A stretch of 44,590 nt of DNA, taken from positions 1 to 44,590 of the forward strand of contig JAUYAK010000038.1 in NCBI GenBank assembly GCA_030693515.1, read 5' to 3'. The DNA is from Opitutaceae bacterium (GTDB lineage: Bacteria; Verrucomicrobiota; Verrucomicrobiia; Opitutales; Opitutaceae). Shown in pieces: positions 15,835 through 41,430 of this stretch. Position 1 is the first letter of the stretch. Each line of letters starts with the position of its first letter. Both the position numbers and the translations under genes were made by a program. The notes under the pieces were generated by a model. That model was not told the origin of the DNA. It saw only the letters and a list, made by a program, of their open reading frames with translations, and ran no database searches.

Positions 15835-15861
15835 CACCGGTCCGTAAAGCCGGACTTCGGT

Positions 15862-15976
15862 AGTGGTTAGTTTGGAAACGAACGACTCTCGGGTAGGCAG
15901 CGAGCTTGCTCGCGCTCGTCCATTCAATCCTGAGCGCCCGCAAGCGGGCTGCCTACGAAATTCAAACTATACCACT
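15862..15976 (+). repeat. MITE-like element, family C copy 1 (complete)
   Basis: About 115 bp bounded by near-matching inverted ends: AGTGGTTAGTTTG on the left, and CAAACTATACCACT on the right, whose complement is AGTGGTATAGTTTG. Inside are two small palindromes (GCGAGCTTGCTCGC and GCCCGCAAGCGGGC) and no gene. A second, inverted and truncated copy lies at 25601-25691. Terminal inverted repeats, size and repetition point to a non-autonomous mobile element or a REP-type unit. No transposase is encoded. The rest of the 290-bp gap between glgC and the TPR gene holds the two hairpins and nothing else recognisable. Confidence 0.7.
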
Positions 15977-16063
15977 TCCCGGACCTCAGCAGGTGCTGAT
16001 GCAAGCCGGGACTTGGCCCTTTGTTTGGGTCGGCGCTCTGAAATTCGCGTGCGAGGCGGAAGG

Positions 16064-24636: not shown

Positions 24637-25239
24637 ATGATCGAGTTCTGCCTTGCTTCGGGCAACGCGCACAAGGTGGCGGAGCTGCAGGCGCTCGCGG
24701 GCACGAGCGGGCTGGCCGTGCGCATCCGATCGGCGCGTGAGTTTGGCGGGATGCCGGCGGTGGAGGAGGACACGGGGACCTTTGTCGGCAACGCGCGCAA
24801 GAAAGCGCTCGCGCTGCGCGCGCGCCTGCCGGCCGAGGTGTGGGCGCTCGCGGACGACAGCGGGGTGTGCGTGGACGCGCTCGGTGGCGCGCCTGGCGTC
24901 GAATCGGCCTACTACGCTGGGCCGGTGTGCGACCCGGCGGCGAATCTGGCGAAACTCGTCGCGACCATGCGCGGCGTGCCGGCGGAGCGGCGGCGGGCGC
25001 GGTTTGTCTGCGTGCTCGTCGCACTCGGCGCAGACGGCGAGGAGCGGGTGGTCGAGGGCGAGTGCTGCGGGCGGCTGCTGGCCGAGCCGCAGGGCGGCGG
25101 CGGGTTCGGCTATGATCCGATTTTTTTGCCCGACGGCCACACGGCGAGCTACGCCGAGATCACCGAGGCGGAGAAAAACCGGATCAGCCACCGCGCCCGG
25201 GCGTGGGCGCAGCTGGCGGATTGGATTAGGACGCGGTAG
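24637..25239 (+). CDS. rdgB: dITP/XTP pyrophosphatase (RdgB/HAM1)
   Basis: House-cleaning nucleoside triphosphate pyrophosphatase that removes dITP, ITP and XTP. The 200-residue protein has all family motifs: CLASGNAHKVAEL, FVGNARKKA, ALADDSGVCVDALGG with the catalytic Asp pair, GFGYDPIFLPDG, and the end EKNRISHRARA. ATG 24637 gives the family N-terminus. It may be co-transcribed with the upstream ThuA gene. Immediately downstream the repeat-rich patch begins. Confidence 0.95.
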   Translation: MIEFCLASGNAHKVAELQALAGTSGLAVRIRSAREFGGMPAVEEDTGTFVGNARKKALALRARLPAEVWALADDSGVCVDALGGAPGVESAYYAGPVCDPAANLAKLVATMRGVPAERRRARFVCVLVALGADGEERVVEGECCGRLLAEPQGGGGFGYDPIFLPDGHTASYAEITEAEKNRISHRARAWAQLADWIRTR

Positions 25240-25256
25240 CGCGGGCGTCGCGGATT

Positions 25257-25408
25257 ATACCAACGTCCCTTGATATTTGGACTTCAGGATGGTGGGGCCG
25301 CTTCTCCGCAAGCGGCCTGGGTTTGAGTCGCGAATCGCCCTGCCACCCAGGCCGGCTCGGAGAGCCAGCCCCACCTTGGCAAAGTCTAAATATTACAAGA
25401 CGCTGGGA
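25257..25408. repeat. MITE-like element with nested family A repeat (copy 3)
   Basis: The outer arms at 25257-25284 and 25382-25408 are imperfect inverted repeats of about 27 bp (left arm includes GATATTTGGACTT, right arm AAGTCTAAATATT). Nested inside, 25291-25375 is bounded by GGTGGGGCCGCTTCTCCG and AGCCCCACC-type ends and carries the family A core (CGCCCTG then ACCCAGGCCGGCT) seen at 1829 and 7967. No gene is encoded. The right arm abuts the stop codon of a receptor remnant. Confidence 0.7.
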
Positions 25409-25603
25409 TTAGAGGTCGAAGCCGACCGTGAACACGAACACGCGCGGCTCGACGCGCGCCCACGCGACGTATTGGCCGGTGGAGAGCACGCGGTTGGGCA
25501 CGAGGTCGTGCTCGTCGAGGATGTTGCGGACGTTGAGCTGCACGCGATCGTTCGTGTTGCCGAGAAATTTGGTGCGACCGCGGTAGGCGATAGCGGCATC
25601 GGC
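25409..25603 (-). pseudogene. Orphan C-terminal fragment of a TonB-dependent receptor
   Basis: About 65 codons on the minus strand read as the last strands of an outer-membrane TonB-dependent receptor barrel: AIAYRGRTKFLGN, DRVQLNVRNILDE, VLSTGQYVAWARVEPR and the terminal VFVFTVGFDL before the stop at 25409. The RVQLNVRNILDE and hydrophobic-alternating end are typical of receptor C-termini. The rest of the receptor, which should be about 800-900 residues, is missing. The reading frame runs upstream straight into the family C repeat (25601-25691). There is no start codon of its own, so it is read as a remnant. Confidence 0.65.
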
Positions 25604-25691
25604 CGCCCGCTGGCGGGCGCTCAGGGTTGAAAGGATGAGCGCGAGCAAGCTCGCGGCCTACCCGCCAGTCGTTCGCTTTCAAACTATACCA
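25601..25691 (-). repeat. MITE-like element, family C copy 2 (truncated, inverted)
   Basis: The reverse complement of this stretch matches the element at 15862-15976: it has the terminal GTGGTATAGTTTG, then AACGAACGACT, GCGAGCTTGCTCGCGCT and CTGAGCGCCCGC, in the same order. The match stops near 25601, where the receptor remnant begins, so the distal inverted end is lost. It lies 57 bp from the 3' end of tRNA-Cys. Confidence 0.72.
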
Positions 25692-25747
25692 CGACCGACG
25701 ATTTCTCACCTGTCGGCGCGTTGGAGGGCGCTGATTTTTGGGGAAAT

Positions 25748-25822
25748 TGGAGGCGCGGGTCGGAATTGAACCGACGCATAGAGGTTTTGCAGACCTCGGC
25801 CTTACCACTTGGCTACCGCGCC
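25748..25822 (-). tRNA. tRNA-Cys (anticodon GCA)
   Basis: A 75-nt cloverleaf on the minus strand. The acceptor GGCGCGG pairs with CCGCGCC, the discriminator is U, and CCA is encoded. The D arm is GCCAAGTGGTAAGGC. The anticodon stem GAGGT/ACCTC has loop CTGCAAA (GCA), and the T arm is GTCGG-TTCAATT-CCGAC. U73 and GCA are the cysteine identity elements. It is flanked by the repeat/remnant patch on one side and a broken lipoprotein gene on the other. Confidence 0.96.
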
Positions 25823-25956
25823 GTGAACTGAGAGGGCGGACGTTGCAGGAAAAAAATGCGCGCGCAAGTGCCGAAATGCGCGGAGCCAAGCGCGGCGGGA
25901 GCCGCCGGGCGGGGCTCGGCGGGAAGACTGTGCGAGGGAGTGGGAAACGAGGAAGC

Positions 25957-27759: not shown

Positions 27760-29235
27760 TCACTTTTTCGCCTTCGCTGCCTTGCCCTTTTTTCCGTCGA
27801 CCGCGGGCGCGTCGCCGAGATCGGGGAGCGGGAGGTAGTCGAAATCGACGATCATTTTTTCGGCAAGGGCGGTGCGCAGGGCCATTTCGGTTTCGCGGAG
27901 CGCGGGTGTGCCGCTGAGGTTGTTCAGCTCCGAGGGATCGGCGTCGAGGTCGTAGAGTTCGTAGACGGGGCGCGGCGTGGTGAAGTAGGTGGCGCGCAGA
28001 CCGGCGCTGAGTTTGCCCTCGGCGTTGGCCGCGATCATCTGCTGCCAGCCGGCGCCGCTCGCGGAATCGACCGGCGAGTAGGGAATCCACGGCGTGCAGT
28101 TATAGATGAGCTTGTAGCGTTCGCTGCGGACCGCGCGGCCGAGGTCATAGCTGCTGCTGCGAATCGCGGCCGTCACCGGGGCGGTGCCGTGCGGCCCGCG
28201 CTCGATAAAGATGTGCGCGCGCGGCGTGTGGCGCTCGCCTTTCAGCAGCGGGAGGAAACTCACGCCGCTCATCTTGGGCCCCGGGGCGAGGCCCGCGGCG
28301 GCGAGGAGCGTGGGCGCGAGGTCCTCGTTGCTGAGCAGCGCGCGGGAGTCACCGCCCGGCTTGATCACGCCGGGCCAGCGGATGACGAGCGGGACGTTGG
28401 AGCCCGGATCGTAGAGGGAGCCCTTGCCGTGCGGGAGCGCGGCGCCGTTGTCGCCGGCGAAGACGACGAGGGTGTTGGCCGCAAAGCCGCGCGCGGCGAG
28501 GAGCTCAAGGACGGACTGCATGGAGCGGTCGAGCCGGTTGACCTCGGCGCAGTAGTCGGCGACCTGCTCGCGCATGCCGGGCAGGTCGGGCCAGTGCGCG
28601 GGGAGTTTCAGGGTTTTGGGATCGGGCCGGAACGAGGCATCGGCGTTCCAGATGTGGTGCGGGTCGCTGAAATTGAGCCAGAGGCAGAACGGTTTCTCCG
28701 CGGGCTTCCGGTCGAGGAATTCGCGCATCTGCTCGATGGCCTGGGTGTCGGAGCCCGTGCGCACGTAGTCCACGCGTTGCTCGAAGGTGCGCAGGCCGTG
28801 CTTCTCCATGATGGTACTGAGCGCGGAGCCGGCGTTGCGCGCGGAGCCGTCGAGGTGATACGAGCGGCCGGCGATGCCGGTGAAGTAGCCGGCCTTTTCG
28901 CGCAGGATCTCGGGAAAGGTGATCTCGTCGCGCGGGAGCGGGGAGGAGAAGCGCGTCATGCGCGCGGCCACGGCGGAGCGCCCGGTGAGGTAGGCGGCGC
29001 GGGCGGGCACGCATTGCGGCGCGGCGGTGAAGAACCGGTGGAACTTCATGCCCTCGGCCGCGAGCCGATCGAGGGCGGGAGTGCGGACGTTGGGGTCGCC
29101 GTAGGTGGAGAGAAACGGGTAGCTGTGGTCGTCGGAGAGGACGAAGAGGATGTTGGGCTTGGCCGCCGCCGTGGCCGCCAGGGCGCCCGTGGCGGATGCG
29201 ATGAGCAGGACAATCGTGGGGAGGAGGGTTTTCAT
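27760..29235 (-). CDS. Secreted sulfatase (CVPAR type)
   Basis: The 491-residue protein has a signal peptide (MKTLLPTIVLLIASATGALA). N-terminal metal ligands are in LFVLSDDHSYPF. The sulfatase signature CVPAR (Cys75), followed by AAYLTGR, fits the relaxed CxPxR form. Further motifs are FSDPHHIW, the second metal site FAGDNGAALPHGKGSLYDPG, and a C-terminal region with RSERYKLIYN and YELYDLDADPSELNNL. It probably acts in the periplasm on sulfated glycans; the substrate is unknown. The end is Lys-rich (DGKKGKAAKAKK). Its ATG overlaps the stop of the upstream propeller gene by an ATGA junction, so the two are almost certainly co-translated. Confidence 0.92.
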   Translation of the reverse strand: MKTLLPTIVLLIASATGALAATAAAKPNILFVLSDDHSYPFLSTYGDPNVRTPALDRLAAEGMKFHRFFTAAPQCVPARAAYLTGRSAVAARMTRFSSPLPRDEITFPEILREKAGYFTGIAGRSYHLDGSARNAGSALSTIMEKHGLRTFEQRVDYVRTGSDTQAIEQMREFLDRKPAEKPFCLWLNFSDPHHIWNADASFRPDPKTLKLPAHWPDLPGMREQVADYCAEVNRLDRSMQSVLELLAARGFAANTLVVFAGDNGAALPHGKGSLYDPGSNVPLVIRWPGVIKPGGDSRALLSNEDLAPTLLAAAGLAPGPKMSGVSFLPLLKGERHTPRAHIFIERGPHGTAPVTAAIRSSSYDLGRAVRSERYKLIYNCTPWIPYSPVDSASGAGWQQMIAANAEGKLSAGLRATYFTTPRPVYELYDLDADPSELNNLSGTPALRETEMALRTALAEKMIVDFDYLPLPDLGDAPAVDGKKGKAAKAKK

Positions 29236-30335
29236 GCGAGGCGCTCGAGTTTGATCGGGTAGGTCTGAAACGCGTTCCACTGGCAGACGATGAGGTCGCC
29301 GTTCGTGAGCACGCACACATCGTGGCCGTGATCGATGATCGGCTCGCCGCGGGCAAGGGGTGTGAGCTTGCCATCTACGTAGGTGGGCGCGGTGCCGCCG
29401 GGGGCGCTCGCGACGCGATTCTGCGCGTCGAGGACGACGGCGAAGCCGGAGGGGTTGCCGGGCAGTTTGCTCGCCACGGGATCGGTGGACCAGCAGACGC
29501 CGGCGTAGAGTTCCGCGCCGTAGAACACGGCGCGGCACACGCGGCAGCCGGGCACGGCGAGGGTCTCAAGGTATTTTCCGTCGAGCGTGAAGCGGCGGAA
29601 GCAGAGATCGGAACGCGAGGTGACGATGAGCGTAGCCTGGTCCGCGCCTGCGCGGAGATCGACGGCGATGCCGTGGGCGTTGCTCAGGCGCTGCTCGGCG
29701 GGCACCCCGGTGCGGCCGCCGAAGCGCGCGATGAATTTTCCGTTGCGGTCGTAGCGGAGGACGAAGTCGGAGCCGTAGCCATCGACGACGTAGATGTCGC
29801 CGTTGGGCGCGACGGCGGTCTCGGTGGGATTGAAGGGCATCGACGGCTCATAGGCGCCGACGCTCATGGGATGGCTGAGGGAAAAAATCTCGCGCCCCGT
29901 GAGGTCGATCTTGGTGACGCGGCCAGTCTGGCGGTAGCCGCCGTTGCCGTTTTTCCAGAGACCGGAGTCGCAGACGAAAAGAAACTCGGCGCCGTTTTCC
30001 TGCGCGAGGGTGAGGCCGTGGCAGCCGGGCCAGACGCTGCCCCAGGACTCGAGGATCGTGCCGTCGGGCTTGAAGACGAGCATCTGGTGCTCCGGGTGAT
30101 CGCCGACCATGAAGAGGCGGCCGTCGGCCACCTGCACCATTTCATGGCAGTTGAGGATCGGATGGTAGCGGGCCTGGCCGGGGCGGACCCAATCCTTGTG
30201 CACGCGGTAGCGGAAAGCGCCGTGGCCGACGATCGTGTCCTTTTTGGGATCGGCGGCGGCGAGGAGCGGTTGGATCCAAGTGGCGGCGGCGGCGGTGCCG
30301 AGGCCGGCGAGAAAGTGGCGGCGGGTGGGGAGCAT
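29232..30335 (-). CDS. Tat-exported NHL-type beta-propeller protein
   Basis: The 367-residue protein has a twin-arginine signal (RRHFLAGLGTAAAATW). The body has repeated beta-propeller strands: GRLFMVGDHPEHQMLVFKPDG, TAVAPNGDIYVVDGYGSD, RYDRNGKFIARFGG, NAHGIAVDL, and a final DVCVLTNGDLIVCQWN. This matches six-bladed NHL/SMP-30-like propellers that bind ligands or act as lactonase- or lyase-like enzymes; the activity is not predictable. It is translationally coupled to the downstream sulfatase (ATGA overlap), suggesting a shared pathway. It is divergent from the DUF1080-like gene across 146 bp. ATG 30335 begins the Tat signal. Confidence 0.82.
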   Translation of the reverse strand: MLPTRRHFLAGLGTAAAATWIQPLLAAADPKKDTIVGHGAFRYRVHKDWVRPGQARYHPILNCHEMVQVADGRLFMVGDHPEHQMLVFKPDGTILESWGSVWPGCHGLTLAQENGAEFLFVCDSGLWKNGNGGYRQTGRVTKIDLTGREIFSLSHPMSVGAYEPSMPFNPTETAVAPNGDIYVVDGYGSDFVLRYDRNGKFIARFGGRTGVPAEQRLSNAHGIAVDLRAGADQATLIVTSRSDLCFRRFTLDGKYLETLAVPGCRVCRAVFYGAELYAGVCWSTDPVASKLPGNPSGFAVVLDAQNRVASAPGGTAPTYVDGKLTPLARGEPIIDHGHDVCVLTNGDLIVCQWNAFQTYPIKLERLA

Positions 30336-30481
30336 GTTTTGGGGAATGGGGATGGGGGAGAGAGGAAACTGCGGGGTGGAATGCGGGTGGGCAAACGGGA
30401 TTTCGGCCGCGAGCAGTGCGGGCCAAGGCGGCGCTTGCGTCGGCCGTCGCGGGCGGTGTGATCGCGGCAGCCCCATTCCCC

Positions 30482-31135
30482 ATGAACATCCGACTTCGCC
30501 TTCCTGTTATTGTGTGCGCCGCGTTGGTCGCGCTTCCGTTGCACGCCGCCGAGCTTGAGCCGCTGCTGGGAAAGAAAGGGAAACTGCTGCTGGAGGAAAA
30601 ATTCGACGGCGACGTCGTGCCCAAAGGCTGGACGAAAAACACGGGCGCGTTGGCCGTGACTGGTGGCGCGCTGCATGCGGGCGAGGTGGCGAGCGACAAA
30701 CATGTGGGGGCGTTTCGCCGCGCTTTGCCGGTGCGGGACTGCGCGATCCAGGTGGACTTCACCTTTGCCGGTGCGACGGCGTTTCACCTCGGCTTCGATC
30801 CGGCGCCGGGCGAGTTGAAGAAAAAGGGCCATCTCTTCTCGCTCATCGTGACGCCCGCGCAGTGGTCGATCACGGAGCACGCCGACAAGGCGGACCCGAA
30901 GTCAAAGAACACGGTGCTGGCCAAGGCGGCGGTGAAGTTTCCGCGCGACCAGCGGTTCACGCTCCTGCTGGAGGTGAAGGGCGACGCGGTGGTCGCGCGC
31001 GTGGACGGCCGCGAGGCGCTGCGCGCGAGCGCCAAGGATTTCCACGTGAAGAAGCCGGGGCTCGTGTTTCGCGTCGCCGGTCCGGACGGCGCGGCGATGA
31101 TCTTCGACAACGTGAAGGTGTGGGAGCTGCATTAG
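30482..31135 (+). CDS. Secreted DUF1080-like (LamG-fold) protein
   Basis: The 217-residue protein has a signal peptide (MNIRLRLPVIVCAALVALPLHA). A single jelly-roll type domain follows: LLLEEKFDGDVVPKGW, FRRALPVRDCAIQVDFTF, FHLGFDPAPGELKKKGHLF, a Lys-rich loop and a final GAAMIFDNVKVWEL. This pattern is that of DUF1080/3-keto-disaccharide hydrolase or concanavalin-like domains in Verrucomicrobiota and Planctomycetota. The activity is a guess (carbohydrate binding or hydrolysis). It is a monocistronic plus-strand gene among minus-strand neighbours, followed at once by a large inverted repeat. Confidence 0.7.
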   Translation: MNIRLRLPVIVCAALVALPLHAAELEPLLGKKGKLLLEEKFDGDVVPKGWTKNTGALAVTGGALHAGEVASDKHVGAFRRALPVRDCAIQVDFTFAGATAFHLGFDPAPGELKKKGHLFSLIVTPAQWSITEHADKADPKSKNTVLAKAAVKFPRDQRFTLLLEVKGDAVVARVDGREALRASAKDFHVKKPGLVFRVAGPDGAAMIFDNVKVWELH

Positions 31136-31139
31136 GGCG

Positions 31140-31222
31140 GGTGGGCGGGCACGTCCCCGTGCCCGCATGGTGGAACGCGATGTCGGGGCAAGAATGCGGG
31201 CGCCGGGACGCGCCCGCCCACC
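31140..31222. repeat. Long GC-rich inverted repeat (family D)
   Basis: Two ~29-bp arms at 31140-31168 and 31194-31222 are near-perfect inverted copies, beginning GGTGGGCGGGC and ending GCCCGCCCACC, around a 25-bp loop. Each arm has an internal palindrome. It lies between the convergent DUF1080-like and receptor genes and could act as a bidirectional terminator. The short GCGGGCGTCCCTGCCCG at the right edge of the window (44574-44590) looks like part of another copy. Confidence 0.65.
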
Positions 31223-31223
31223 T

Positions 31224-34166
31224 TCAGAAGCTGAGCGTGGTCGTGAAGCTGAATTTGCGCGGCTCGAGCTGGTTGAAGCCGCTCTTCACCTGCATGCGCG
31301 GATTGCCGCCGGGGGCGGTGAGGGCGTTGCCGTTATTCGTGACCGCGCCGGGCAGGTTTTGCAGCTGGCCGGCTTGGATGACGCTGTAGCTGTTCCACTG
31401 CGGGCTGTCGTCATCGAGAAGGTTTGTGATGTTGATCTGGAAACGGGCCTGCACCTTGCCGAAGCGGCGGGTGTAGTTGGCGCCAGCGGTGGTCGACCAG
31501 GTGGGATCGACCCAGAGGTAGTCGTAGGCGGATTCGGCCGTCTGCTGCACGGTGGGATTCGCAGTGTTGAACTTGAGCCGTGGATCACGGCTGCCGACTT
31601 TCTTGTGCGCGCGGTAGTTGAAGCCGCCGTTGAGGCCGAGCCCCTTGAACCGGCCTTCGGTGATCCGATAGGAACCGGCGAGATTCACGCGATGGCGCTC
31701 AAGGTTGTTGCCGAGCGTGCCGGGCGTGGAGCCGTTGAGGCTGTTCTCGATGTTCTGCACGGCCTGGCGAATCTGGTCCGGAGCCAGGATGGCCTTACCC
31801 TCGACGACCGTGCCCGTCGTCGACTGGCCGGCGCGGTCATAGTAGGCGCGATTGGCTTCGAAGAAGGCCCGGCGGTCGCGGCTCTCGAACACGGTGTAAA
31901 CGATCGGGTGCGAGTAGTTGGCCGTGAGCGTGATGTTCCGCGTGGGATTCGCGGTGATCTCGGCTTCCCAGCCTTCCAGCTTGCGGGAGGCGACGTCCTG
32001 GAAGTTGAAGCCCGCGCCCGTGACGAAGCGGGTATCGGTAAACCCGAGGTTGTTGTAGAGGTTCTGCCAATCGCCGCGACCGCCCCAGGTGCTGAGTTGG
32101 TCAAACTGCTGCGTGTTATACTTGGTCAGCGTGACGTAGGCGATGCCGTCACCCATCGCGTAGCGCAGGCCGATGTCCTTGGTGGTCGAGCGGGTGAGGG
32201 GCGGGTTGTCCTCGGAGATGAGCGGGATGGTCGCATTGGCAATCTGCGCGAAGTTCGAGGAGTAGTTGGCCACGAACCCGAGCGGCGCGAGCAGGCGGCT
32301 CTTCCCGATGAACGGATAGGCGACGAGGCCGCCGCTGGGGCTCGTCTGCCAAATCTGCCGCTTGCGGTGCAGGCCGGGGACAAACACGCCTGACCCGCCG
32401 AAGGTCTCGAAGCCGCCGATATTCCGATACGTGACCGGATCGTTGCCGATACGGTTAAGGAAATCGCCATGCACGCGGTCGCGGCGCACGCTGCCCGTGA
32501 GCGCGAGGCGCTCGCCGAAGAAAGTGCTCTGCGAGACCAGCTGCCCATAGGTGATGGTGCGCTGGTTGATGTTGCCGCCGGTCTCGACGAAGGCCCAGTT
32601 GACACCGGGGACACTCGGCGGAGTGAAGCCGCTGAGCCTCGGGCGGGGATTGTCCCAATAGATGCGGTAACGGAGCTGGTTCATGGCGTTGTTGGCGTCC
32701 GGGGCCGCGGGGTTGTTGGCCCAGCGCCACGAGGAGGCCTTGGCTTCGAAGGTCGTGCGCCGCCAGCCGGCGTTGATGCTGAATCGCTGCTTGAAATCGA
32801 AGAAGCGCGGCAGGGCGAATTTGTAGGTGCCGGCGACCTTGTATTCGCGAACCCGGTCCTGCTGGTATTGGAAATTCTGCCCGAAGTCCGAGTAGGCTTT
32901 CCCGAAGTTCGGGTTGGGCTGGCCGTTCGGGAGGAGCCGGTTGACGTCGATGCGGTAGTCGCCGGGCAGCTGGTCGGTGTTTTCGTAATGGGGATCGCCG
33001 TCATTCTTCACGATGCCGATCTGCACGTAGAGGTCCTGCGAAAAGCGGTGATCCAGCCAGTAGGACTGCGCGTTGAAATCGCGGTTGATGACGGCATCAG
33101 CCGGCCCAAGGAAGAAGTCCTTTGAAACGCCCGGGCGGAAATTGGGGAGATCGGAGCGGCCTTCCCACGGAATCTGGTAACCCAGGCCGACGGAGGCGTA
33201 TTGGTTTCCGCGATAGTTGAGGAGGCTGTTGGTGCCGAAGTTCCAGACTTGGTAATCCTGCGTCGCGCTGATCTGCGTGAGGCCGAAGTTGGCGAAGCTG
33301 GCGATCGCGGTGTTGTTGGTGTTCACGGTGGTGCGATCCCAGCGCGAGGCCTGCTCGCCGTAGGTGCGGCGGTAGGCGACGTTCCTCTCAGCGTCGCGCT
33401 GAACCTCGGCGCGGAACCGGGTGTTGTCGGTAATCTTATAGGTGAGTGCGGCCGTGAGCCCGTTCTGCTTGTTGCTCGTGCCGTCCTGGTAGGCCTTGAT
33501 GTTCTGGTGCAGGAGGTTCATCCGGATGGCCAGCCGATCAGTGCCGTAGTTGGTATCCAAGGTCGCCCGGTAGCCGCCGAAACTGTCGATGCGGGCCGAG
33601 GTCGTGGTGAAGTTCGATCGCAGGCGGGCCTGCTTGCTCGTGCTGCCCTGGAGGCCGCCGGGGCCGCCGTCGCCGAAGAGCGCGGCGTTCGGGCCGCGGG
33701 AGAAATCGTAGCGCTCGGAGTTGTAGGAGTCGGCGACGTAGTAGTTGATGGAGCCGTTGCGCACCGGGAAATTGCCGTTGCCGTCGACCCCGCGGAAGCT
33801 CGTCTGGAAACGGTTGCCGCCGAAGGCGCCCGACTCGCCGCCAGTCGGGGCGTCGGCGCCCACTGTCCAAGCCAACGCCTGGTTCATGTCGGTCAGATCG
33901 AAATCCTCGAGGAATTCCTTCGTCATGACCGAGATTGAGGCCGGGGTGATGCGGAGGGGCGTGTCGGCCCGCCCGCCGGCGAGCGTGTTGCCGCCGAAGT
34001 AGCCGCGATCCTTGTCGGTGCTGACCTCAAAGGGCGTGAGCGTGATCGTTTCGCCGCTGGGGGTGGCGGGCCGGCTCGCGGGAGCGGCCGGAGCAGTTTG
34101 GGCGTGGAGATGCGCCGCGGCGGCGAGCCCGAGGGCGAAGACGAGGTGGCGATGGTGCGTGATCAT
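31224..34166 (-). CDS. TonB-dependent outer-membrane receptor
   Basis: Large outer-membrane receptor that imports a bound ligand using TonB energy. The 980-residue protein has a signal peptide (MITHHRHLVFALGLAAAA, cut near HAQ). A short segment with LTPFEVSTDKDRGY precedes the plug domain (ISVMTKEFLEDFDLTDMNQ, YDFSRGPNAALFGDG). A long beta-barrel of alternating aromatic strands ends in RKFSFTTTLSF with a C-terminal Phe. No STN or carboxypeptidase-like domain precedes the plug. The ligand is unknown; linkage to sulfatases and sugar-related enzymes suggests a glycan or derivative. A two-component regulator/kinase pair lies 175 bp upstream on the same strand. Confidence 0.93.
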   Translation of the reverse strand: MITHHRHLVFALGLAAAAHLHAQTAPAAPASRPATPSGETITLTPFEVSTDKDRGYFGGNTLAGGRADTPLRITPASISVMTKEFLEDFDLTDMNQALAWTVGADAPTGGESGAFGGNRFQTSFRGVDGNGNFPVRNGSINYYVADSYNSERYDFSRGPNAALFGDGGPGGLQGSTSKQARLRSNFTTTSARIDSFGGYRATLDTNYGTDRLAIRMNLLHQNIKAYQDGTSNKQNGLTAALTYKITDNTRFRAEVQRDAERNVAYRRTYGEQASRWDRTTVNTNNTAIASFANFGLTQISATQDYQVWNFGTNSLLNYRGNQYASVGLGYQIPWEGRSDLPNFRPGVSKDFFLGPADAVINRDFNAQSYWLDHRFSQDLYVQIGIVKNDGDPHYENTDQLPGDYRIDVNRLLPNGQPNPNFGKAYSDFGQNFQYQQDRVREYKVAGTYKFALPRFFDFKQRFSINAGWRRTTFEAKASSWRWANNPAAPDANNAMNQLRYRIYWDNPRPRLSGFTPPSVPGVNWAFVETGGNINQRTITYGQLVSQSTFFGERLALTGSVRRDRVHGDFLNRIGNDPVTYRNIGGFETFGGSGVFVPGLHRKRQIWQTSPSGGLVAYPFIGKSRLLAPLGFVANYSSNFAQIANATIPLISEDNPPLTRSTTKDIGLRYAMGDGIAYVTLTKYNTQQFDQLSTWGGRGDWQNLYNNLGFTDTRFVTGAGFNFQDVASRKLEGWEAEITANPTRNITLTANYSHPIVYTVFESRDRRAFFEANRAYYDRAGQSTTGTVVEGKAILAPDQIRQAVQNIENSLNGSTPGTLGNNLERHRVNLAGSYRITEGRFKGLGLNGGFNYRAHKKVGSRDPRLKFNTANPTVQQTAESAYDYLWVDPTWSTTAGANYTRRFGKVQARFQINITNLLDDDSPQWNSYSVIQAGQLQNLPGAVTNNGNALTAPGGNPRMQVKSGFNQLEPRKFSFTTTLSF

Positions 34167-34341
34167 CGTGGGGTTGGCGGGGGTTGGATTGCGGAACAAG
34201 CTACAAGCTGTGGGAGCACGGAGACTCGATGGAACGAGCCGCGTGCGGAGTCGGGGATTTCGAGACGGGGTAGGGAGCGCCGGAAGGATGCCACAAGCGG
34301 TCGCATTCCACCATCCTCCGATCGGACTACCGGCGGACGCC

Positions 34342-34971
34342 TCAGACCTTGAGCAGCCCGCGCTCGAAGCCGCGCGCCACCGCCTCAGCGCGGTCGGCGG
34401 CGTGCAGCTTCGCGAGGAGGGACTGGACGTGGGACTTGGCGGTCCACTCGGAAATCCCGAGCACGCGACCAATCTCGGCGTTGGTGAAACCCTGTCGCAC
34501 CAAACCCAGCACTTCCAGTTCACGGCGAGAGATGGCGCCGGTCTCGTGTTCGGCGGCCATCTGGGCGACGATTGATTTGCCAAACGACTTTTCCCCCGCG
34601 TGCACCTGGCGGATGGCGGCGATGAGTTCCGTCGGCCCTATGGTCTTGGTGACATAGCCGGACGCGCCGGCTTCGAGCGCATGCCGGAAGTCCTCCGGCG
34701 CCTCCGACGAAGTCAGCATCAGGACTCGGGCGCCGGAAAACTCGCGTCGCAGGCGCTGGAGCGTGGCGATCCCGTCCATCCCGGCCATGCTGATGTCGAG
34801 CAGCATGACATCCGGCTGGTGCTTCCGCCACACCTCAATCGCACCCGCCCCATCGGTCGCTTGGGCGACGACGTGCAAGCCAGGTTCCGAGGCCAAGACA
34901 CTGGCCAATCCCGCCCGGAGCACGGCGTGATCGTCCACCAAGGCGACGCGAATCGGGGAAGGCGTGGGCAT
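34342..34971 (-). CDS. NarL/LuxR-family response regulator
   Basis: The 209-residue protein has a receiver domain at ~7-120, with D13/D14, phosphoacceptor D59 (VMLLDISM) and the Lys of GYVTKT. It is followed by a LuxR-type helix-turn-helix at ~145-205 (ISRRELEVLGLVRQG, FTNAEIGRVLGIS, TAKSHVQSLLAKL). ATG 34971 is chosen because the receiver begins six residues in; earlier in-frame starts overlap the kinase gene. It lies 76 bp downstream of the kinase gene, its likely partner, and 175 bp upstream of the receptor gene, a possible target. Confidence 0.93.
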   Translation of the reverse strand: MPTPSPIRVALVDDHAVLRAGLASVLASEPGLHVVAQATDGAGAIEVWRKHQPDVMLLDISMAGMDGIATLQRLRREFSGARVLMLTSSEAPEDFRHALEAGASGYVTKTIGPTELIAAIRQVHAGEKSFGKSIVAQMAAEHETGAISRRELEVLGLVRQGFTNAEIGRVLGISEWTAKSHVQSLLAKLHAADRAEAVARGFERGLLKV

Positions 34972-35047
34972 CCGGAGCGAGGGAGTCGGCGCAGCATAGC
35001 AACGGCGACTCAGCTCGGCAATGGTCCGATCGGATGGTCCGGCGCGT

Positions 35048-37246
35048 TCAGGCGATGCTTTCATCGTAGGCGCGCATCGGCACCTCAAGGTGGATGCTCG
35101 TGCCCTGTCCGGGGGCGCTCTTCAGCGTGAAGGTCCCGTCCAGCCGCTCGATGCGTTCACGCATGCCCGAGAGACCGAAATGACCCTCGCTGGCCCCCGC
35201 CTCGGTTCCGGGCACAAAACCGATGCCGTCGTCGCGGATCACGACCGCGATCCAGCCACGCTTCTCCGTCCGCCTGACCTCGAGGGTTAGCTTCCGGGGG
35301 CGGGCATATTTGACGGCGTTATGCACGGCTTCCTGCGCGGCCAAAAGGAGATTGCCCGCCACAAAGTCGGGCACGCCGTTGAGATATCCCGGCGAGCGCA
35401 TTTCGATGGCAATCTGGTGGCCCGCACAAGCCCGCTCCGTGAACTCCTGCAGCGCCTGCGGCAGGGACTTGCCTTGGAGGGGGTGGCTGCGCAACGCCCA
35501 GACCGAGCTGCGCAGCTCCTTGACCGAGTGATCCAACATGCGCTGCGCCACGGTCAGGAGCGCGACCGGTTTGCTGTCCGGATTCATGCCGGTCATCTCC
35601 CGGGCACACGCGCCGATTTGGAAGCCGATGCCGCCCATCGTCTGGAGCAGGGTGTCGTGCAGGTTGGCTGCGAGGCGGTTGCGCTCGCGCAGCGTGGCTT
35701 GAAATTCCACCGCCGCGTCGCGCCGTGCGCTCATCTCCGTCGCCAGCTGCTGGGTCTTGCGCTGCACCTGCCTCCGGAGCTGCCGGACCCAGATCAACGC
35801 GGCGCCAAATCCCGCCGCCACGACCGCCACCGCGCCCAGGAGCCGCTCGGTCGTCCACCAGGACGGCGCGTTCACGACGGTGATATCGGCACCGCTCCGC
35901 AGCACGACCTCGAGCCGCGTGGGCATCAGCGAGAGGCGGGGCGCGGCCTCGGGCGTGTATTCGAGCTGCACGATTCCGGTCACCTCGAGCTCGCTTCCCG
36001 TTTGCAAGGCATCGATGGCCGTCGGATCGCCGGCATGCAGCGCCGCGGTCACGATCATCTCGCCGCTCTGGAGCGTGAGGCGCCGGGCGGGTTGCTTGCC
36101 GTCCGGGGTCGCCTGGACGGCCAGCAAGGTCGCTCGGAATCGAATCAAGTGGCCGTCGAAATCATGCGGGCTTGCCAGCTGCCCGGCTCGCATCGCCGCG
36201 TCGTTCAGGGAAATGATCTCCTCAGGGCCAACCGCGATGGCAACGGGAGCGATCCCGGTCCCAATCTTGCGCACTTGCGCCCCAACCAGCGTTCCCACGG
36301 AACGTGTCATCTCGGCGAATCCGGCGGCCTCCACGCGGTCGCCCGCGCGGAATTCCTCCGGCGAGCGGGTCTCGACCCGGACGGCGCGGTCGCCGTCCTG
36401 CACGTAGAGGAATTTTCCCGGCAAGGCGTAGGTGATGACGCCCGCAACGCGCAGACGATGCGGACCGATCGGTTCCGGGCGGAACGGCAGCAGCCGGTCG
36501 AGCTTGGCGAGCGGAGCCTCGAACGGCGGCACGGCGGGCACCTCAATGACCAGTTCGTCCGCATGGCTGCTGAAAACGCGCGGCATCGTGATCTCGCCCC
36601 GGGTGTTGATGCGGGTGACGGCGACCCCCGTCACGCGAACCTCGGCGTCAACGAGCACCATGGGATCAGGCAGCGCGCTCTTGGGCACCTCAGCGGTGAA
36701 ACGATTGAAGTTCGCTTTGAGTTCGAGCAGCCAACCTGTTTCGGCCGGCTGCAACCCCTGGACCACGCCGCGCACCTCAACCCGTTGGCTGTCCTCGGCT
36801 CCGTTGAAAAAGCGCATCGGATCCATCGGGCGCGCCGATGGCAACGGCTGCTCACCCACGCGGCGGAGCGTTATCGGCATGATTCCCGGCGCGTAGCCTC
36901 CGGGATAGCTGACACCTTCGATTTCCAGAACCTCGCCGACGCGGATGGCCTTGAACGCGGCATCGTCCGACGCCCAGACGCCGTGTTTGCGCGCGTCGGG
37001 CACGAATACCCAAACGCCGCTCGTCTCGTCCTGCACGGTCAATTGGTCGCGCAAACCCCGCCAGGTCACCACGGCCCGCACCCGGACGGGCAGCGCTTTG
37101 GCGGCCTCCTCCCGGGAAAGGGAGCGGACGTCCGCGATGCGCGTGATCGGCTCCTGCGCTCGTGCCACCGCCAGCGGGCAAATGGCCGTCCAGAGTAGAA
37201 TGGCTGCGAAACGAAGCGGCTCCACCGCAGGATGGGCGAGGGACAT
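35048..37246 (-). CDS. Sensor histidine kinase with tandem OB-like periplasmic modules
   Basis: The 732-residue protein has an N-terminal signal anchor (LRFAAILLWTAICPLAVARA) and a ~430-residue periplasmic part. That part looks like four repeated small beta-modules (about 50-150, 155-255, 265-345, 375-460), each opening with a V-x-V-x-G/A-V strand, e.g. PVRVRAVVTW, QRVEVRGVVQG, HRLRVAGVITY, LIRFRATLLAV. One membrane helix follows (~468-486, LLGAVAVVAAGFGAALIWV). A HisKA_3 dimerisation domain has ERNRLAANLHDTLLQTM (His530), and the HATPase domain has AAQEAVHNAVKYA, RDDGIGF and HFGLSGMRERIERLDG. ATG 37246 is preferred to an upstream TTG. It sits 43 bp after the DUF1552 gene and before its likely regulator. 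Confidence 0.9.
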   Translation of the reverse strand: MSLAHPAVEPLRFAAILLWTAICPLAVARAQEPITRIADVRSLSREEAAKALPVRVRAVVTWRGLRDQLTVQDETSGVWVFVPDARKHGVWASDDAAFKAIRVGEVLEIEGVSYPGGYAPGIMPITLRRVGEQPLPSARPMDPMRFFNGAEDSQRVEVRGVVQGLQPAETGWLLELKANFNRFTAEVPKSALPDPMVLVDAEVRVTGVAVTRINTRGEITMPRVFSSHADELVIEVPAVPPFEAPLAKLDRLLPFRPEPIGPHRLRVAGVITYALPGKFLYVQDGDRAVRVETRSPEEFRAGDRVEAAGFAEMTRSVGTLVGAQVRKIGTGIAPVAIAVGPEEIISLNDAAMRAGQLASPHDFDGHLIRFRATLLAVQATPDGKQPARRLTLQSGEMIVTAALHAGDPTAIDALQTGSELEVTGIVQLEYTPEAAPRLSLMPTRLEVVLRSGADITVVNAPSWWTTERLLGAVAVVAAGFGAALIWVRQLRRQVQRKTQQLATEMSARRDAAVEFQATLRERNRLAANLHDTLLQTMGGIGFQIGACAREMTGMNPDSKPVALLTVAQRMLDHSVKELRSSVWALRSHPLQGKSLPQALQEFTERACAGHQIAIEMRSPGYLNGVPDFVAGNLLLAAQEAVHNAVKYARPRKLTLEVRRTEKRGWIAVVIRDDGIGFVPGTEAGASEGHFGLSGMRERIERLDGTFTLKSAPGQGTSIHLEVPMRAYDESIA

Positions 37247-37289
37247 CAAGGTTGGGTCGGCACCACCCGTGCCACTGAGCGCCGGAGGA

Positions 37290-38672
37290 TCAAACGTTGC
37301 CGAGACGGCCGGTCGAGTCGCCGAAGCGCTCGAGGGCCTTCACGCCGACCTGATCGGCGAGGCTGAGGAACAGGTTGCTCATGGGCTTGCCCTCGTGCTT
37401 CACGTAGCGGCCGGGCGTGAGCAGGCCGCCGCCGCCGCCGGCGAGCACGACCGGGAGGTTGTCGTGGGAGTGGCGGTTGCCGTCGGCGTTGCCGCTGCCA
37501 TACACGATGCGCGAATTGTGGAGGAGGGAGCGGCCGTCCACATCCTGGGTCGCCTCCATCTTGGCGAGGAAGGCGGCGAAGCGCTCGACATACCATTGGT
37601 CGATGAGCGCGACCTTGGCCATGCGCTCCTCGTTGTTCTGGTGATGCGAGAGATCGTGGTGGCCTTCGGCGATGCCGATCTGGCTGAAGGAGCGGTTGTC
37701 GCCGTCGTGGCCGAGCATGAAGGTGGAGACGCGCGTGGTGTCGGTCTGGAAGGCGAGCACCATCATGTCATACATGAGGTCGACGTAGTCGGCGTGCGTG
37801 GTCGGGATGCCGGCCGGCGTGGGGCGATCGGGATCGAGGTTGGGGCCGAACCGCTCGGCCTGCTGGATGCGGGCCTCGATGGCGCGGATGCCGGTGAGGT
37901 ATTGGTCGAGCTTGTCGCGATCGCCGGTGTCGAGGCGGCCGGACATGCGGCGGGCGTCCTCCATCACGTAGTCGAGCACGGAGCGGCGGGCGGCGAGGCG
38001 GCGCTGGGCGTTGGCGGCGCGCTCACCGTGCGCGCCCGTGCCGAAGAGGCGCTCGAAGACGAGGCGGGGGTTGTTCTCCGGTGTGACCGGAGTGGAGGCG
38101 TTGGCCCAGGAAATGTTGTATTGGTAGGCGCAGGAGTAGCCGGAATCGCAACCGGCGGACTTGCGCGTGGCATCGCAGGTGAGTTCGAGCGAGGGCAGGC
38201 GCGTGAGGTGGCCGACTTGGTTGGCGATGATCTGGTCGATCGAAATGCCGGCGCGCACGTTCGTGGCGCTCTTGTTGAGGCGGACGCCGGTGAGGAAGAC
38301 GCCGTTGCCGCGCGCGTGGTCGCCGGCGCCATCGGGCCCGCCGACGGCGTTGGCGTGGTCGAGGCCGCCCACGATTTGCAGGTGCGAGCGCACGGCGGCG
38401 AGCGGGGCGAGGGTGGGGTTGAACTTGAAATCGGTCTCGCCGCCCTCGGGCCACCAGGCGCCGGGGATGGCGCCGTTGGGGAAGACGATGAAGGCGGTGC
38501 GCAGCGGCGCGCCGGTCGCGGTGGTCGCGAGCTTGGCCGCGCCGGTATCGGCCAGCAGACGCGAGGCGCCGGCCGAGGCGAACGCCGGCAGCGCGATGCA
38601 CGCCCCGAGGCCGCGCAGAAAGTGGCGGCGGTTCATCGCGGCGGAGAGCGGGGAGGAAGCGGGGAGTTTCAT
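37290..38672 (-). CDS. DUF1552 family exported protein
   Basis: The 460-residue protein has a twin-arginine-like signal (NRRHFLRGLGACIALPAF). The DUF1552 body has FIVFPNGAIPGAWWPEG, LQIVGGLDHANA, GNGVFLTGV, SLELTCDATRKSAGCDSGYS in pieces, YDMMVLAFQTDTTRVSTFML, EGHHDLSHH and RIVYGSGNADGNRHSHDNLP. The family is widespread and paired with DUF1592-type proteins in Planctomycetota and Verrucomicrobiota; its function is unknown. A second ATG at 38636 begins exactly at NRRHF and is an alternative start. It follows the DUF1592 gene by 43 bp on the same strand, the usual pairing. Confidence 0.88.
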   Translation of the reverse strand: MKLPASSPLSAAMNRRHFLRGLGACIALPAFASAGASRLLADTGAAKLATTATGAPLRTAFIVFPNGAIPGAWWPEGGETDFKFNPTLAPLAAVRSHLQIVGGLDHANAVGGPDGAGDHARGNGVFLTGVRLNKSATNVRAGISIDQIIANQVGHLTRLPSLELTCDATRKSAGCDSGYSCAYQYNISWANASTPVTPENNPRLVFERLFGTGAHGERAANAQRRLAARRSVLDYVMEDARRMSGRLDTGDRDKLDQYLTGIRAIEARIQQAERFGPNLDPDRPTPAGIPTTHADYVDLMYDMMVLAFQTDTTRVSTFMLGHDGDNRSFSQIGIAEGHHDLSHHQNNEERMAKVALIDQWYVERFAAFLAKMEATQDVDGRSLLHNSRIVYGSGNADGNRHSHDNLPVVLAGGGGGLLTPGRYVKHEGKPMSNLFLSLADQVGVKALERFGDSTGRLGNV

Positions 38673-38715
38673 GGCGCGTGCGGGCGGGGTTGGGGAAAGG
38701 GGGGCGTCGGTTCGA

Positions 38716-41430
38716 TTACGGTGCGGCGGCGGCCGGGGGTGATGCGTTGAGCGCGAGAGGGCCGGGTGGGGCGCGCCGCTGCTGAAAGGGTGCCGATTCC
38801 ACGATGCCGCGCAAGAGCGCCGAGGGGCGTCCACCCGCGGCTTCCAGCCGGGCGACGAGCGTGTCCACGGTATCGGCGTCGTAGTGCTCAATGCCGCGGC
38901 CTAGCGCGTAGGTGAGCAGCTTCTCGACGAGGCAGTGGTAGAAATCGTGGGAGCGTTTGGTCACGAGCACCGCCTTCAGCTCCCGCACATCGCGGAAGCT
39001 TTCGCCGGTGATCAGTTTTCCGGCGGGTTCGACGGGGTGGCCGGAGTCGGCGTCGCGCCACATGCCCATGGCGTTGAAATTTTCCAGCGCGAGCCCGATG
39101 GGGTCCATGCGGAGGTGGCACGAGGCGCACAGGGGCTCCTTGGCGTGCAGCGCCAGGGTCTCGCGGAGGGTGAGCTTGGCCAGGGCGGTGGGGGAGCCGG
39201 CGTCCTCGAGCGCGGGGATGTTGGGCGGAGGAGGCGGCGGCGGAGCACCGAGGATCGCCTCGAGGATGAAGACCCCGCGCTTTACGGGCGAGGTGCGCGT
39301 GGGGTTAGAAGTCACCGCCAGCACCGTGCCCTGCGTGAGCACGCCGCCGCGCGGACTGTCGGGCGCGAGGGTGACCTTGCGCATGCGCCGGCCCTCGACG
39401 CCCGCGATGCCGTAGTGTTTGGCGAGATCCTCGTTGAGGAAGGTGTAGTCGGCCTGGAGCAGTTCGAGGAGCGGGCGGTCCTCGCGGAGGACGTGCGCAA
39501 ACGTGAGCTCCGTCTCCTCACGCATCGCGCGGCGGAGAGGCTCCGTGAGCTCGGGTTTAGGGAGGCGGTTGAACTCGGTGAAGACGGTCCGCGCCTGGGC
39601 GAGCGCGGCTTCTTCCTCGGGGGTGCGGGTGGTGTTGCCGCGGCGGCCGCCGGTGCCGCCGAAGCCGCTGCGCCGAAACAACGCGCGCGCCGCCTCGAAC
39701 TCGGGATTCGGATGATCGCGCAGGAAAACATCGAGCGGCGTGATCGGCACCGTCGCGATGTCGCGCGCCTCCAACCACTGGCCGGTGAAATTTCGCACCA
39801 GCTCATCCGCGCGCGGCGAGGCGAGCATGCGCTGCAATTGCGCGGGCAGCTGGGCGCGGAGCTGGCCGGCGGCGGCGAGGCGCGTGAGCTCGGCGTCGGG
39901 CGGGGCGGACCAGAGGAAATAGGCCAGCCGGCTCGCCAGCGTGAACTCGTCCACGCGCGGGTGCTTCTCTCCGGGCCGCAGTGGCTCGACCTCCTCGTCG
40001 CGGAACAGAAACCGCGGCGAAGCCAGCACGGCCACCATCGCCTGCGCGACGCCCGCCTCGAAGGTGGCGCGCGGGGCCGAATAGGTGGCTTCCGCCAGCG
40101 CCACGAGCCGATCGAGGGAACCGGCGTCCACCGGCCGGCGAAACGCCCGCGACGCGAACTCGCCGAGCACCTCGCGCGCGTAGGCTCGGCGCTCTGCGGC
40201 GGCGACCGGGGGATCGCGGGGAAAGACCTTTTCGTAGCCCGCGGGTTTGACCCAGTGCTTTTCCTCCAGCGGGCCGCGCACGGTCACGCCGGAGAGGCGG
40301 AGGCGGAGGTTCCGCCACTGCGTCTGGTAGGGGAGGTGGGGCCGGACCTCGATGGAGAACTCGTGCTCGCCGGCCGCCCACTCGCGCTCGGCCGCGAACT
40401 CGAAACGCTTGTCGCCTTCGCGCTGGAAGTCCTGCGCGTGGATGACCTGGCCATCGACCTTGAACACGAGGTGCGCGCGGTTCAGGTCGAAGAAATTGTC
40501 CACGTAGCGCTCCAGCGTGCGGGCTTCGAAGCTGATGCGGTATTTGCCGGGATGCTCGACGCGATGCTTCGCGGCGACGGTGAGCGGCGTGTAGTAGGAG
40601 AGATCGATCATCGTGCCTTCGACGACGGGGGCCGGGCGGGCGTGGGGCGGCGGCTGGTTGGAGGGACCGCGTCCGGCGGTGCGGCCTGCGCGGGCGGCGG
40701 CGGGAGCGGCCGGGGCACCCGCCGCGGCGGGCGGCGGCGTCAAGGCGGGGAGTTCGCCGGGGGGTGCAGCCGCGGGCTTGGGCTCAACCGGCACGACCGG
40801 GTCGATCGTGATCGTCTTGAAGGCGGAGCCGGCGACGACGGTCTCGGCGGGAATCCGCGACTGCAGCGGGACGAACTTCCCCACGATGATTTGGGCGGCA
40901 TCGAGGTATTTCTCGAGCAGCATGGGGGAGATGGTGAGGACATCGGCGATGTTGTCGAAGCCGTGGCCAGTGTCATCGGCGGGGAATTCCTTCGCGGTGT
41001 CGTAGTCCACTCCGGTCAGGTCGCGGATGGTGTTGCGGTATTCGGTGCGGTTGAGCCGGCGCACGGCGGTCCGGCCGGGGTCCGGCGCGGCGGGATCGAG
41101 CCCGAACGCCTCACGTTTGATCCAGGTGTGCAGCCGGGCGAGCTCGGCGGGCGTGGGCTGGGCCTCCTCCGCGGGCGGCATGAGCTGGGTGCGGGTATTC
41201 TTCAGCACGCTGGCCCAGAGCTTGGAATCGCGGAGCGCCTTGGGGTCGTCGAGGGTGACGCCGCCCTTGGCATGGCTGTCGCCGTGGCAGTCGTAGCAGT
41301 ATTTCGCGAGGAGGGGCTGCACGTCGCGGCGGAAACCCTCGAGACTCGGCTCCGCGGCGCCACAGGCGCTCACCGCCGTGATTGTGAGCACGACTGCGAC
41401 GGTGCGCAGGCGGCCGGGGCGCTTCAACAT
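38716..41430 (-). CDS. DUF1587/1595/1592/1588/1585 protein with cytochrome c motif
   Basis: The 904-residue exported protein has an N-terminal signal with a Cys at the lipobox-like SAC. A cytochrome-type heme motif CYDCH lies at 45-49. DUF1587 follows (~122-185, RRLNRTEYRNTIRDLTG). A long Ala/Pro-rich linker (~225-275) leads into a beta-rich, carbohydrate-binding-like segment. DUF1595 and DUF1592 come next (FASRAFRRPVDAGS, LASRLAYFLWSAPPD, NFTGQWLEARD), then DUF1588 with a second CASCH motif and LRMDPIGLALENFNAMG, then DUF1585 (LVEKLLTYALGRGIEHYD). This planctomycete-cytochrome architecture is found in secreted proteins of unknown function, probably redox-active. It is the partner of the downstream DUF1552 gene. 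Confidence 0.9.
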   Translation of the reverse strand: MLKRPGRLRTVAVVLTITAVSACGAAEPSLEGFRRDVQPLLAKYCYDCHGDSHAKGGVTLDDPKALRDSKLWASVLKNTRTQLMPPAEEAQPTPAELARLHTWIKREAFGLDPAAPDPGRTAVRRLNRTEYRNTIRDLTGVDYDTAKEFPADDTGHGFDNIADVLTISPMLLEKYLDAAQIIVGKFVPLQSRIPAETVVAGSAFKTITIDPVVPVEPKPAAAPPGELPALTPPPAAAGAPAAPAAARAGRTAGRGPSNQPPPHARPAPVVEGTMIDLSYYTPLTVAAKHRVEHPGKYRISFEARTLERYVDNFFDLNRAHLVFKVDGQVIHAQDFQREGDKRFEFAAEREWAAGEHEFSIEVRPHLPYQTQWRNLRLRLSGVTVRGPLEEKHWVKPAGYEKVFPRDPPVAAAERRAYAREVLGEFASRAFRRPVDAGSLDRLVALAEATYSAPRATFEAGVAQAMVAVLASPRFLFRDEEVEPLRPGEKHPRVDEFTLASRLAYFLWSAPPDAELTRLAAAGQLRAQLPAQLQRMLASPRADELVRNFTGQWLEARDIATVPITPLDVFLRDHPNPEFEAARALFRRSGFGGTGGRRGNTTRTPEEEAALAQARTVFTEFNRLPKPELTEPLRRAMREETELTFAHVLREDRPLLELLQADYTFLNEDLAKHYGIAGVEGRRMRKVTLAPDSPRGGVLTQGTVLAVTSNPTRTSPVKRGVFILEAILGAPPPPPPPNIPALEDAGSPTALAKLTLRETLALHAKEPLCASCHLRMDPIGLALENFNAMGMWRDADSGHPVEPAGKLITGESFRDVRELKAVLVTKRSHDFYHCLVEKLLTYALGRGIEHYDADTVDTLVARLEAAGGRPSALLRGIVESAPFQQRRAPPGPLALNASPPAAAAP

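Follow-up and report, generated by a model that had tools for sequence, protein, structure and literature searches.

The 566 bp that end in tRNA-Cys hold, in our reading, the scar of a receptor gene that was lost in place, and to this reading, with the steps set out below, we assign a probability of about 0.7. The window, i.e. the whole stretch of 44,590 nucleotides analysed, comes from the draft genome of an Opitutaceae bacterium (G000; 6.65 Mb, 130 contigs). The original prediction had described a MITE-like element, a receptor fragment, a truncated family C element and tRNA-Cys at 25257-25822, and all four were confirmed, with refined borders. It had the first element ending at the stop codon of the remnant and the second meeting the 5' side of the remnant near 25601; the MITE indeed ends at 25408, next to a stop at 25409-25411, and the second junction falls at 25600/25601. 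The features are as follows.

24637..25239, plus strand: rdgB/HAM1 NTP pyrophosphatase gene, the left neighbour (Pfam PF01725, E=6e-59)
25255..25257, no strand: TTA target duplication, left copy (from the sequence and the TNA duplications in the family)
25258..25408, plus strand: 151-bp MITE (element 1), a nested palindrome enclosed by terminal repeats of the IS630 type
25291..25375, no strand: nested family-A palindrome inside element 1 (many genome matches are restricted to query positions 42-126)
25409..25411, minus strand: TTA target duplication, right copy, which is the stop codon TAA of the remnant (from the sequence)
25412..25600, minus strand: receptor remnant, last 63 codons, TonB-dependent type (DNA identities over 189 nt)
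25601..25696, plus strand: element 2 (family C), about 26 nt of its left arm missing (alignment of copies)
25697..25704, plus strand: GACGATTT, the 8-bp duplication expected on the surviving side of element 2, the other side being lost
25697..25712, minus strand: 16 nt matching the upstream leader of a receptor, the minus strand reading CAGGTGAGAAATCGTC
25748..25822, minus strand: tRNA-Cys (GCA) (ARAGORN; Rfam RF00005)
25900..25921, no strand: synteny break, where the relative G018 runs on into ParA and the G000 contig does not

Apart from the tRNA, Rfam gave only matches under the gathering scores, and no sigma-70-like promoter was found within 25,200-25,900.

The remnant has its stop codon TAA at 25411-25409, and coding homology extends up to about 25600. 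Its C-terminus is homologous to full receptors with frames of about 1000-1300 codons in translated matches. It is 83% identical to the end of a 1084-codon frame on contig C26 of the same genome and 86% identical to the end of a 1124-codon frame on contig C141 of the relative G025, the DNA identities over 189 nt being 84.1% and 86.8%, respectively. The C26 frame contains a Plug domain, scoring 28.8 bits against a cut-off of 23.9 with the Pfam TonB-dependent Plug model; for the G025 frame Pfam gave no hit, and the remnant, a very short piece, matched neither Pfam nor NCBIfam. With 63 codons left, it has no Plug domain and no full barrel. Its differences from the G025 receptor are distributed over the codon positions as 7/2/16 (p=0.002), and those from the C26 receptor as 10/4/16 (p=0.03); by this skew, most of the divergence arose while the sequence was under coding constraint. 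A recent copy of the C26 gene was ruled out by the DNA identity of 84%. As a separate observation, G025 holds, in addition to its intact receptor copy, a degenerate C-terminal fragment of the same receptor, interrupted by an in-frame stop and about 236 codons long (contig C57; L201, 5734-6438). In G020 (L155), the apparent 3' end of a different receptor lies downstream of tRNA-Cys and faces it from the opposite strand.

The junction between the remnant and element 2 carries the main evidence for a deletion. The two elements had been described as members of repeat families, and a genome search bore this out (64 matches for element 1, both strands counted, and eight others for element 2). The family of element 2 is about 122 bp long, the eight complete copies in G000 spanning 121-131 bp; eight other places in G000 match the window copy over at least 89 bases, the best non-self match having E=7.9e-29. 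Complete copies have ends like GGTARTGGTATAGTTTG, and a left arm like GGTARTGGTATAGTTTGAATTTCGTA is kept in all eight other G000 copies and, less well, in one in G001. The window copy alone lacks about 26 nt of this arm and has receptor sequence in its place, which identifies the 25600/25601 junction as a deletion scar. By eye, about 2 bp (GG) are common to both sides of this border. An 8-bp duplication is exact in two of the eight complete copies, agrees at 7 of 8 bases in two and is unseen in four; the expectation of GACGATTT beside the window copy derives from those copies that have it. The window has another copy, a complete one on its minus strand (15859-15979), whose target duplication agrees at 7 of 8 bases.

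The far side of element 2 carries a sequence that resembles the start of a receptor gene. The leader motif assigned to the receptor is CAGGTGNGAAATCGTC, and the minus strand between element 2 and tRNA-Cys reads CAGGTGAGAAATCGTC, the equivalent in G018 being CAGGTGTGAAATCGTCAGTCG and the region upstream of the G025 receptor on C141 CAGGTGGAAAATCGTCAGTCG. The G018 flank scored 33 against the G025 upstream region, and none of 1500 random segments reached 31 (maximum 30). With a shorter flank, G018 scored 27, no more than the highest value among 357 controls, and the flank taken from the window scored 22, between the 95% (20.2) and 99% (23.4) control values. Of six receptor upstream regions compared, that of G025 alone matches significantly; that of G006 is in register with a score of 21, which is within the control range (133 of 1500 controls were as good), and the motif is not shared by the upstream regions of G003, G008, G016 or the C26 receptor. 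It was likewise absent upstream of 20 other G000 receptor loci, the best of which reached 15 of 20 positions as against 19 for G025, in a scan of the sense strand with positions estimated from frame lengths, in which L284 and L288 share the best sequence. A general receptor motif was rejected on these scores. As a check on whether the motif goes with tRNA-Cys itself, flanks of tRNA-Cys from 17 of 24 loci were scored; these, G000 and G018 not included, scored 9-13, with the anchor misplaced in several. From these comparisons we infer that the leader-like sequence would belong to the lost receptor; taken as such, it means that both gene ends remain and that about 3.2 kb between them are gone. 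The original prediction had put the loss at most of a receptor gene of about 2.7 kb, which underestimates the missing part.

The nearest relative, G018, has an rdgB gene 89% identical to that of the window with the same tRNA-Cys downstream, and the interval between them contains neither the remnant nor element 2. There, 9 nt separate rdgB from a stub of about 27 nt that looks like the left end of the MITE (TTATCCAAGG...ATTTGGAC); then come 83 nt, the leader motif and tRNA-Cys. The deletion reading does not account for these 83 nt. In G018 we found no full receptor of the remnant's family at E<=1e-100, no match to the receptor C-terminal piece at 1e-10 and no match to element 2 at 1e-4. Since G018 keeps leader-like sequence beyond the insertion point of element 2 and not the receptor end, the endpoints of the loss differ between the two genomes. 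This suggests two independent deletions, one in G000 and one in G018, and the receptor was apparently deleted twice in parallel.

The pairing of rdgB with tRNA-Cys is confined to these two genomes among the 27 rdgB loci compared, some of which are cut by contig ends; among the 26 other genomes of the genus, only G018 has tRNA-Cys within about 1.5 kb of rdgB. In named records, where the best 80 of 589 matches were considered and the own genome was possibly excluded, two near records, an Opitutia and an Opitutaceae MAG (L333, L334), have no tRNA in the stretch that matches rdgB. A relative with the receptor intact next to tRNA-Cys had been put forward as support for a deletion; no orthologous receptor was found there in the loci of 17 relatives, out of 24 with a tRNA-Cys match (the scan with the C26 receptor covered 18 loci, namely these 17 and the ParA locus of G000). 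The sole receptor match, in G008 about 2-5 kb from tRNA-Cys, was rejected as an orthologue, being distant (25-31% identity).

On the other side of tRNA-Cys, ParA lies nearby in six of the 17 relatives' loci (G018, G001, G016, G005, G024 and G019), and in G000 it is located on another contig. Between 25900 and 27772 of the window the synteny with G018 changes from contig C15, where ParA comes next, to contig C3, and three stretches within 27,772-41,358 match C3. Either tRNA-Cys also marks a rearrangement point, or there is an assembly error or misjoin on that side.

Element 1, at the other end of the remnant, is a multicopy element of 151 bp without a transposase of its own. Its predicted RNA fold has -86 kcal/mol (z=-7.86), and its best non-self match in G000 has E=1.2e-63. 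Many of its 64 matches at E<=0.01 count one palindrome on both strands or cover the inner palindrome alone, and this nested family-A palindrome occurs elsewhere without the terminal repeats. Two further repeats were seen in the window, one at 1835-1912 that resembles the inner palindrome, and, at 31139-31222, a palindrome of about 84 bp that recurs several times in G000 and G001. The ends of the element 1 family are TACCAACGTCCC/GGGACGTTGGTA, and the right end of the window copy has 4 mismatches in 12 positions to the consensus. TTA stands on either flank (25255-25257 and 25409-25411), the right copy being the stop codon of the remnant. This points to a clean insertion into the receptor stop, with nothing removed; the 3-bp duplication rebuilt the stop codon and left the receptor gene unharmed. 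The duplication evidence at this copy is one three-base match, which could be chance. Of the two elements, element 2 alone is truncated; in the receptor loss, element 1 is a bystander. The original idea that the repeats removed the receptor therefore stands for element 2, which lies at one end of an in-place deletion, lacks an arm kept in eight of eight copies and has the leader match on its far side, and falls for element 1 with its clean TTA duplication. The deletion reading is partly supported, and rests on more than could be known when it was first proposed.

The terminal repeats of element 1 are common to an IS630-family insertion sequence on contig C17 of G000 and to other MITEs with TACCAACGTCCC ends. 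This IS is 1141 bp long, with one gene, terminal inverted repeats (TIRs) and TGA on both sides, and its transposase passes NCBIfam NF033545 (157.6 bits, cut-off 100) and Pfam DDE_3 (PF13358). It is likely the driver of the element 1 family. Contigs C72, C91, C94, C101 and C108 terminate within the same IS, each time preceded by TAA or TTA. Ends of the IS630 type at L249, L257, L259 and L254 enclose differing palindromes, for example one starting TGTCATTGCGAGGAGCGG; since the same ends surround other palindromes in G000 and G018, the interior of these MITEs looks exchangeable.

The flanks of these elements point to a target rule. A pattern of TNA followed by the TIR, with at most one mismatch, gave 34 matches in G000 and 42 in G018, and the reversed pattern 1 and 0. 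From 117 fetched, overlapping loci of both genomes we obtained 45 TIR-bounded pairs 100-200 bp in length. TNA stands beside one end or both in 43 of them and beside both in 30; the two pairs with TNA at neither end were dropped before the count of 43 copies. The same three bases flank both sides in 23 pairs (9 TTA, 6 TCA, 5 TAA and 3 TGA), and the middle base agrees in 23 of the 30 that have TNA at either end. Many loci were fetched with a pattern that itself contains TNA, which biases the frequency of TNA but leaves the agreement of the middle bases unaffected. Identical flanking triplets were also found in 8 of the 18 pairs from loci found by similarity alone. Counted among the 43 copies are a site that G000 and G018 apparently have in common (L012/L132) and an overlapping pair (L312). 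Outside this set are the window copy and the copy at L020, with 4 mismatches in their right ends; by eye, both sit on stop codons. A broader tally of 54 pairs (TNA next to one or both ends in 50, identical triplets in 26, a stop position in 18) was discarded, since it contained spurious long pairs. The 2-bp TA duplication typical of IS630 was thus not seen: the duplication is a TNA of 3 bp, its two copies being identical in 23 of the 43 MITE pairs, and the sole IS copy seen with both ends, that on C17, has TGA/TGA. With a matching middle base, TA alone does not fit.

Every TNA is a stop codon when read one way, TAA and TGA as they stand, TTA and TCA on the complementary strand. Among the 43 copies, 18 coincide exactly with the stop codon that closes a coding-like frame of at least 80 codons, gene calls here following a simple rule of length and GC3 without a gene finder. 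In the background, 394 of 4346 TNA sites outside coding sequence were stops (9.1%; 800 kb of G018), which gives p=1e-8 for the share among all non-coding TNA sites. With the baseline restricted to TNA sites no more than 100 nt from a gene end, 18 of 30 compares with 31.7% expected (p=0.001); a limit of 30 nt gives 18 of 24 as against 53.8% (p=0.03). Given this modest excess over sites near gene ends, much of the effect is gene-end preference or selection. A strict scan of 800 kb of G018 gave two elements, one of them at a stop, which is a small sample. We read the pattern as a TNA target combined with tolerance at gene ends, recognition of stop codons by the transposase being not proven. Direct support for this comes from a comparison of 26 G000 elements with about 0.86 Mb of G018: at L020 a gene reaches TAA and is followed by the MITE, and its G018 orthologue ends with TGA at that place without a MITE (the left flank aligned to G018, the right flank had no match). 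A second site, L019, is empty in G018 and poorly aligned.

It is an even question, in our judgement, whether an IS630-type family shifted its target from TA to a 3-bp TNA, so that its MITEs, with interchangeable palindromes, would settle harmlessly on stop codons and add 3' hairpins, the receptor of this locus before its deletion being one instance. If this is right, the TNA target rule itself makes insertion into a stop codon harmless. The TNA duplication and its link to stop codons are the more general point of this work, and likely a new one.

For the locus itself, a receptor gene would have lain on the minus strand between rdgB and tRNA-Cys. An IS630-type MITE would have entered the TTA that is the receptor stop, the 3-bp duplication restoring the stop, and element 2 would have inserted with an 8-bp duplication into the receptor upstream leader. 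A deletion of about 3.2 kb would then have joined the inner border of the left arm of element 2 to receptor codon ~1021, leaving 63 codons. In G018, without element 2, a different deletion would have taken the receptor and most of the MITE. The deletion mechanism was probably recombination at short homology, about 2 bp being shared by eye; both the order of events and this mechanism are our inference from the present arrangement.

An unlikely alternative is that the remnant and element 2 came ready-made from another receptor locus and that a whole gene never stood here. G018 lacks both, the relatives scanned have no intact receptor at the locus, and the separate degenerate fragment on contig C57 of G025 illustrates that such fragments occur. 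Taken by itself, the G018 interval would favour an insertion, but it has the leader and the MITE stub. The leader-like sequence lies, in G000 as in G018, where the 5' end of the gene is expected, and the stub occupies the same place as the MITE. The TTA duplication, moreover, puts the rdgB flank against the receptor stop before the arrival of the MITE, and the remnant, at 84% DNA identity, is not a recent copy of the C26 gene.

That one ancestral deletion accounts for the loss in both genomes is highly improbable: the body of the receptor is absent from both, as it would be after a single event, but G018 has leader-like sequence beyond the element 2 site and not the 3' end kept in G000. We give equally little credence to a false join caused by repeats. 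The assembly does consist of 130 contigs, at least five of which end inside the related IS, and synteny with G018 stops to the right of tRNA-Cys; against an artefact, rdgB is next to tRNA-Cys in G018 too, and the stack is short.

Several known systems resemble parts of this locus. In being short, without a transposase and placed between genes, element 1 is like the Chunjie and RUP MITEs, and Correia is another bacterial MITE of intergenic regions. Its likeness to the IS630 family, itself related to Tc1/mariner, lies in the C17 IS, with its transposase, length of about 1.14 kb, single gene and terminal inverted repeats. ISY100 and IS630 duplicate TA (PMC2170065), whereas the duplication here is TNA with a middle base that usually matches on both sides. 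A 3-bp duplication, TAA, is reported for the Fot-type pogo transposons, relatives of Tc1/mariner (PMC7386202); these are eukaryotic, whereas the element 1 family is bacterial and TTA, TCA, TAA and TGA all occur. In the open-licence literature searched, including passages of PMC10969869, PMC2170065, PMC7386202, PMC8533490 and PMC5896051, we found no report of a TNA duplication for IS630 or of MITEs that sit on stop codons. The bacterial MITEs Chunjie and RUP are described as short, transposase-free and often intergenic (PMC10969869, a review); exact insertion into a stop codon sets element 1 apart from them, the term 'stop codon' occurring 0 times in the main text of that review. One Coxiella MITE, situated where a gene has its 3' end, instead lengthens the protein (PMC5896051).

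If the proposed history is right, a GC-rich bacterial genome has shed a large receptor gene and left both of its ends as a readable scar. In adjacent deletions and pseudogene scars associated with insertion sequences, a mobile element lies exactly at one end of the deletion. The same is seen here with element 2, a candidate mobile element; unlike in those deletions, element 2 itself is cut, which argues that the deletion entered the element rather than starting at its tip.
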